From NCBI RefSeq assembly GCF_014201825.1, contig NZ_JACHFJ010000001.1:124001-188000 (forward strand): a stretch of 64,000 bases of DNA. The letters are read 5' to 3'. The notes beneath the pieces were generated by a model that saw nothing but the letters and a program-made list of their open reading frames with translations, ran no database searches and had not been told where the DNA came from. Made by a program: the position numbers and the translations under genes. The DNA is from Acidocella aromatica. Lineage in GTDB: Bacteria > Pseudomonadota > Alphaproteobacteria > Acetobacterales > Acetobacteraceae. Of this stretch, positions 2,722 to 23,692 are shown piece by piece (positions within the stretch are counted from its first letter, which is position 1; each line of letters begins with the position of its first letter).

Positions 2722-3651
2722 TCACTCGACATCAGGTGTGTCAGCCTCCGGCCTGTGCACCGGCACCGTGTCATGAAAGCGGCGGTAATCAATCGTCGCT
2801 CCACCGTCCGGCGAGCGGGTCACGATATCGATAAAGCGGTGATTGAACCGCACATCCTCGGCGCCATACACATATTTGGCGGTGATGGTGGCGCTCAGCG
2901 CCTCGTCCGTACCGGTAAGCAGGCAGACAAACACATTGCCCGCCGCCGCCAAGCTCTCGCGGTCTCTGCCCCAGAGCGGGCTATCCTGAGTGATCTTGTG
3001 CGAGACCATCCAACTCAGCGCAAAAACCGGCGAGAAGTCCCGCTCCAGCTTCAGCGGGAGCATCCGACGCATCACCCCGCCTTCCGCCTCATCCTCGTCC
3101 ATCAGCATCACCACGCTCATATGCGCCTCGGAGATTTCCTCCCGCCGCTGATTGGCGACCCGGAACATCAGCGTCTGCACCCCTCCTATCTCGCGCACCA
3201 CCATCACCTTGGAGAACAACACACGCGGGCGCGGGCGCGAGAGCCGGGCGAAAAACACGCCCGTGGAAACCGCCAGATTGATCTGGCCGAGCAGAATCTC
3301 AACTGTGACGACGATATTGGCCAGGAGAGAGACCGGATAAACGGTGCTGAAACCGCTGGTGGAGAAGGCCTGCACCGAGAAGAAAAAGGCCGAGGCAAAA
3401 CGGCCATAATCGCCGCCCGGCACCCCGGCAAGCCCACCGATCAGCGTATAAACGCTGGCGAAGATGAGATTGACGGCCACAAAATACAGCCCCAACAGCC
3501 CGATGAGCGCCGGCAGCGGCATGGTCATCAGGTCGTAGTACAGATCCTTCAGCCCATGCCGGGCAATGCCGCGCCGCTCAATGGCGCGGATCGCCTCGGC
3601 TGAGAGCGGCTTGATCCGGCCGCGCCGCGCCCTGTGCTGATGCTGCTCCAT
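2722..3651 (-). CDS. Inward-rectifier-type (KirBac-like) channel with a non-canonical selectivity filter
   Basis: The architecture is that of KirBac channels: a basic N-terminus with a slide-helix-like segment, TM1 at about 47-70, a pore helix at about 84-97, TM2 at about 108-135 ending FARLSRPRPR, and a long cytoplasmic immunoglobulin-like domain to residue 309. The TM2 end and the first beta strands match the KirBac pattern well. The filter is unusual. Where the family has TVGYG followed by D-M-H-P, the sequence here reads TSGFS followed by T-V-Y-P (about 98-106). I checked this codon by codon, and the frame is intact on both sides. It may therefore conduct poorly, be non-selective, or have another role. 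The ATG at 3651 is preferred over a GTG at 3714. Confidence 0.82.
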   Translation of the reverse strand: MEQHQHRARRGRIKPLSAEAIRAIERRGIARHGLKDLYYDLMTMPLPALIGLLGLYFVAVNLIFASVYTLIGGLAGVPGGDYGRFASAFFFSVQAFSTSGFSTVYPVSLLANIVVTVEILLGQINLAVSTGVFFARLSRPRPRVLFSKVMVVREIGGVQTLMFRVANQRREEISEAHMSVVMLMDEDEAEGGVMRRMLPLKLERDFSPVFALSWMVSHKITQDSPLWGRDRESLAAAGNVFVCLLTGTDEALSATITAKYVYGAEDVRFNHRFIDIVTRSPDGGATIDYRRFHDTVPVHRPEADTPDVE

Positions 3652-23110: not shown

Positions 23111-23305
23111 CTAGCATGGAGCACTTCACCACGTCAAAGATATTTCCTAGGAATTCCTTAATGACTCGGCGTAACTCCCCCTCGCGGAATCAACAAATTT
23201 CGCTGCTTTGTTCGCAATTTGTTCATGTTTCGCGCACGCAGTCCTGCGGCAAATCAATTTTGCAAACGCAACGAAAATTGTTTGGGCCAGAACAAAAAGA
23301 GAAAA

Positions 23306-23692
23306 TCCAGACGGTCTGTAAGCCGGGTTCTGTCCACGCCCCTAGGGACGCTGGACGGCCATTCATCTGGGGCGGACGTTACCGCCCGCCTCACGCAACC
23401 AACCCGGGCGGCAAACCGGAAATCGTTTCGCGCCCATGCTTTCGCACGGCGCCGGCCGCCCCTATTCGGTCTTGCTCCCGGTGGGGTTTACCCTGCCCTC
23501 CCTGTTACCAGCGAGGCGGTGCGCTCTTACCGCACCATTTCACCCTTACCCTGGGCGAACCCGAAGGCGGTATGTTTCTGTGGCACTGTCCCTGGGGTCG
23601 CCCCCGCCGGCCGTTAGCCGGCACCGTACTTCCGTGGAGCCCGGACTTTCCTCCCATGGCTTGCACCACCGGCGGCCGTCCAACCGTCTGGA
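23306..23692 (-). ncRNA. rnpB: RNase P RNA (class A)
   Basis: This is the catalytic RNA of RNase P, which trims tRNA 5' leaders. The minus strand shows the conserved 5' core GAGGAAAGTCCGGGCTCC and the 3' core ACAGAACCCGGCTTACAG. The ends are set by the P1 helix: CCAGACGGT at 23691-23683 pairs perfectly with ACCGTCTGG at 23315-23307. That gives about 387 nt, normal for an alphaproteobacterium. A T-rich stretch follows the 3' end. The gene begins about 20 bases after the amidase stop. Confidence 0.95.

Follow-up and report, generated by a model that had tools for sequence, protein, structure and literature searches.

A KirBac-type channel gene of Acidocella aromatica is, to judge from codon comparisons with its close relatives, an intact and still-selected gene with a change localised to the pore, where the K+ selectivity filter reads TSGFS. 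Channels with altered filters are already known (NirBac, GYX), and TSGFS in a KirBac is a new variant among them. The gene is located in a stretch of 64,000 nucleotides, referred to here as the window, and has the following features:

2722-3651, minus strand: KirBac-type channel gene, 309 aa; ATG at 3649-3651, stop at 2722-2724; start kept in the 90% identical orthologue
3439-3516, minus strand: TM1 helix, residues 46-71 (AlphaFold model)
3361-3402, minus strand: pore helix, residues 84-97, RFASAFFFSVQAFS (helix in AlphaFold model and alignment)
3346-3360, minus strand: filter TSGFS, residues 98-102 (TTGYG in relatives)
3241-3327, minus strand: TM2 helix, residues 109-137 (AlphaFold model)
2743-3222, minus strand: cytoplasmic Kir domain IRK_C (PF17655), residues 144-303 (E 2.1e-21)

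The encoded protein has the Kir domain, and the full-length homology and fold, of the solved KirBacs. IRK_C is matched at 76.8 bits against a cut-off of 22.5, KirBac3.1 aligns with residues 10-299 (E ~1e-58), and the match to KirBac1.1 spans residues 26-307. An AlphaFold monomer model (mean pLDDT 83.8), which was used as support for the fold alone and from which filter geometry was not judged, retrieved KirBac3.1 as the top PDB match in Foldseek (E 7.7e-32, prob 1.00). The window protein resembles KirBac3.1 and KirBac1.1 in its TM1, pore helix, TM2 and cytoplasmic Kir domain, with 34-38% identity in structural alignment. Unlike these structures, which carry TIGYG and TVGYG, it has TSGFS, plus T95A and D87S in the pore helix region. 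The filter codons, ACC AGC GGT TTC AGC, face the TIGYG of KirBac3.1, and the 309-aa frame is unbroken, so a frameshift is ruled out. On all of these points, namely a KirBac-like channel, a filter reading TSGFS and an uninterrupted frame, our results agree with a preliminary description of this DNA. The protein departs from the canonical TxGYG/GFG filter of the KirBac/IRK class, and the pore model PF07885, which detects the KirBacs of four other genomes (G415, G068, G410 and G256), misses it. A profile search of the genome with PF01007 gave no match, a result that carries no information either way.

Homologues were drawn from 397 genomes of the family Acetobacteraceae and 38 genomes of the genus, and the 147 filters read come from a non-exhaustive family sample in which weak family-search matches were read in part. 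These filters comprise TVGYG (105), TTGYG (16), TIGYG (16), TIGFG (4), TVGFG (3), TLGYG (2) and the TSGFS of the window (1). The signature TxG[YF]G is present in 146 of the 147, and the window KirBac is the sole exception, a result that bears out the anomaly for which the preliminary description had proposed such an alignment. A further 17 homologues (15 loci from a phylum search and two Fodinibius loci) all read T/S-x-G[YF]G. Residues T98 and G100 are invariant across a 32-row alignment and both are retained in the window KirBac. The replacement of D-M-H-P by T-V-Y-P after the filter had also been put forward as an anomaly, but this claim does not hold: T-V-Y-P, T-I-Y-P, A-I-Y-P or D-I-Y-P follows a normal TTGYG in the nearest relatives, and T-V-Y-P is normal for the subfamily.

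The nearest relative in the sample, an Acidocella sp. whose orthologue is 90% identical, has TTGYG, as does a 77% identical orthologue. The gene order ftsA, ftsZ, short ORF, ybjQ, KirBac, lpxC, cysD-like is common to the window and the 90% identical orthologue. The YbjQ-family gene (PF01906; 3663-4079, plus strand) is divergent from KirBac and adjoins it in the nearest relative as well. Elsewhere in the window, an RNase P RNA of class A was identified at 23303-23691 on the minus strand (305 bits).

Comparison of the window gene with the 90% identical orthologue shows 31 amino-acid-changing and 79 silent codon differences. When polarised with the 77% identical relative, 13 amino-acid changes are derived on the window branch and nine on the sister branch. 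Residues 87-104 hold five of the 13 window-derived changes and none of the nine sister-derived ones:

3391-3393, minus strand: D87S (GAT to TCG, three bases), derived
3367-3369, minus strand: T95A (ACC to GCC), derived
3355-3357, minus strand: T99S (ACC to AGC), derived, in the filter
3349-3351, minus strand: Y101F (TAC to TTC), derived, in the filter
3346-3348, minus strand: G102S (GGC to AGC), derived, last filter glycine

Changes on the window branch cluster in the pore at the level of codons (5 of 18 versus 8 of 291 elsewhere, p = 4e-4) and of bases (7 of 41 non-synonymous sites versus 11 of 652, p = 3e-5), although both values are somewhat flattering because the limits of the pore segment were chosen after the data were seen. 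The filter alone gives 3 of 5 codons versus 10 of 304 (p = 6e-4). A horizontal or modular swap of the P-loop is ruled out by the synteny and by the scattering of point changes amid ordinary silent divergence.

A sequencing or assembly error is an extremely improbable source of this pattern. Although the evidence comes from one assembly of the species, without reads, the five separate codons are all non-synonymous, include a three-base replacement and involve no indel, and the source genome (2.88 Mb, 29 contigs) is 100% complete. The preliminary description had pointed to normal homologues together with an error at this site as grounds for dismissal; relatives indeed carry TTGYG, but a pattern of five codons with multi-base change and a preserved frame is unlike sequencing error. 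It is also quite unlikely that the gene has no role and is decaying, with the pore the first part to go. KirBac is dispensable in the genus, where 10 of 38 genomes carry it at full length, and in this genome it coexists with KdpA, Kup and a further K+ channel gene. However, the frame, start and Kir domain are intact, and the changes are confined to the pore, with neither stops nor indels. Outside the pore, the window branch has no more polarised changes than its sister (8 versus 9 in amino acids, 11 versus 17 in bases), and pairwise dN/dS between the window gene and its orthologue is 0.11 over the whole gene, falling to 0.09 when residues 84-116 are left out and rising to 0.21 within them. These values therefore argue against free drift of the gene outside the pore, where purifying selection, as estimated from codons, is still acting.

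We put at close to an even chance that the window protein is a NirBac-like channel in which the inner half of the filter is kept and the outer half lost, yielding a non-selective or weakly selective pore. On this reading the KirBac gene has descended vertically at its lpxC-ftsZ position, point substitutions in this lineage have altered its filter, and the protein should still fold and probably assemble as a Kir tetramer. With T98-x-G100 retained, formation of the inner ion sites S4-S3 is plausible. In K+ filters the final glycine adopts a left-handed backbone shape. Because serine disfavours this shape, G102S, together with Y101F, would be expected to abolish or deform the outer pair, S1-S2. 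The two remaining sites might then produce a NaK- or NirBac-like pore for monovalent cations.

Known channels offer precedents for such a pore. NaK has the S3-S4 sites only and is non-selective, and HCN1, likewise limited to these two sites, admits Na+ (PMC9822992). An aromatic residue is retained at position 101 of the window KirBac, unlike in NaK, which counts against the NirBac-like reading. NirBac1.1 and NirBac1.2 are tested non-selective channels of Kir fold, and the NirBac channels show that an altered filter in this fold is compatible with assembly and with the passage of Na+, K+ and Rb+ (PMC4607889). Since these channels constitute a tested precedent, the non-selective pore is the best supported of the functions offered in the preliminary description, which had also suggested a sensor or another function, for which we have no evidence. 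Like NirBac1.1, 1.2 and 2.1, the window protein combines a Kir domain with a non-canonical filter. NirBac2.1 (TTGTD), which was expressed too poorly for testing (PMC4607889), keeps T-x-G and loses Y-G, the same two residues as in the window. Their filter letters differ from TSGFS, however, and the window protein, known from sequence alone, carries point substitutions on a TTGYG parent, whereas the entire P-loop is replaced in NirBac1.1 and 1.2. The window filter apparently arose independently of the NirBacs of Anaeromyxobacter and Gemmatimonas, because its sister sequence is the 90% identical TTGYG KirBac of Acidocella. A literature search found no flux data for TSGFS or for any KirBac with G-F-S. 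The selectivity of KirBac1.1 is lost at acidic pH (PMC11743430), a behaviour that, if applicable to the window protein, may bear on an acidophile; a literature search on the potassium physiology of Acidocella yielded no direct data.

The next best reading after the NirBac-like pore is one resembling hERG G628S, in which physiological cation flow would be prevented, the pore being either non-conducting or blocked by K+, and the protein would be kept as a silent subunit or for a structural or sensing role; we consider this possible but somewhat unlikely. The wild-type hERG filter is SVGFG, and G628S gives SVGFS. The title of a 2011 study by Es-Salah-Lamoureux, cited in PMC8516344, reports permeation blockade by potassium with gating normal. 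The outer filter letters of this variant, G-F-S, are identical to those of the window KirBac, and G628S has been reported as non-functional though it traffics normally (PMC3411645), which counts against the NirBac-like reading. However, G628S is a pathogenic variant of a voltage-gated channel from a distant family, whereas TSGFS is a natural wild-type sequence in which the additional T95A and T99S changes may compensate. Moreover, a homologue search of this genome found no second KirBac gene as a partner. A literature search for Kir2.1 G146S returned nothing useful.

It is very unlikely that the filter is still K+-selective, with the serine accommodated and T95A and T99S compensating. TbIRK, a natural inward-rectifier relative without the signature, prefers K+ (PMC5429665), and this too counts against the NirBac-like reading; unlike the window KirBac, TbIRK has the filter GGYVG and keeps its final glycine. 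Mutation of the second glycine, by contrast, is reported to abolish K+ selectivity and function (PMC3283738). The same paper describes GYX proteins of kinetoplastids and Trichomonas in which the second filter glycine is likewise missing, with serine among its replacements (GYSD/GYSE), although these belong to other K+ channel families and the window has its F-S in a channel of Kir type. Prokaryotic and protozoan GYX homologues had been noted earlier (PMC3283738), the prokaryotic ones being attributed in that paper to Kuo et al. 2005.

Retained selectivity also draws on an Acetobacteraceae subfamily of 2TM-RCK channels in which members devoid of the last glycine are kept by strong purifying selection, one of them reading TVGFS, although this comparison is at the level of sequence and is no guide to the selectivity of those channels. 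The same genome encodes, outside the window, a 2TM-RCK (TrkA-N) channel with the filter TVGYQ (G000:C1:76619-77695; L157/L161), adjoining citrate synthase. Among 49 filters of this subfamily, a table in which L156 and L174 are the same locus and L207 and L208 are distant, 20 are TVGYG, three are LVGYG and 26 have E, D, Q, N, T or S at the last glycine. A quick tree built without the filter columns, with several weak forks, requires 13 or more switches between glycine and other residues, and pairs without the last glycine have dN/dS of 0.06-0.19, indicating purifying selection. Closely related channels of the genus (L175, L176, L179, L181, L185, L188 and L190) end the filter variously in D, E or N, which suggests that several polar residues are tolerated there. 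An RCK channel of another genus (L203, G109:C61:153-1163) carries TVGFS, with the same G-F-S as the window KirBac. Three RCK channels (L173, L180 and L183) read LVGYG, in which the threonine lining the innermost filter site is lost. A literature search for TVGYE, TVGYD and TVGFS returned unrelated matches only.

The loss of the same filter position in two families of one genome may be coincidence. We consider it unlikely that the last glycine was dropped in both 2TM channels as part of a repeated remodelling of this one position in Acetobacteraceae that would give channels which still conduct but with changed selectivity, perhaps as a fit to life in acid. The two orthologous KirBacs, 90% identical and differing in TTGYG versus TSGFS with few other differences, constitute a natural near-matched pair. 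With it one can test which of the pore changes are sufficient to convert a K+ channel into a protein of another kind, and whether G-F-S is made tolerable by T95A or T99S. Judging by the RCK finding, natural channels seem to hold the last filter glycine less strictly than is usually assumed.
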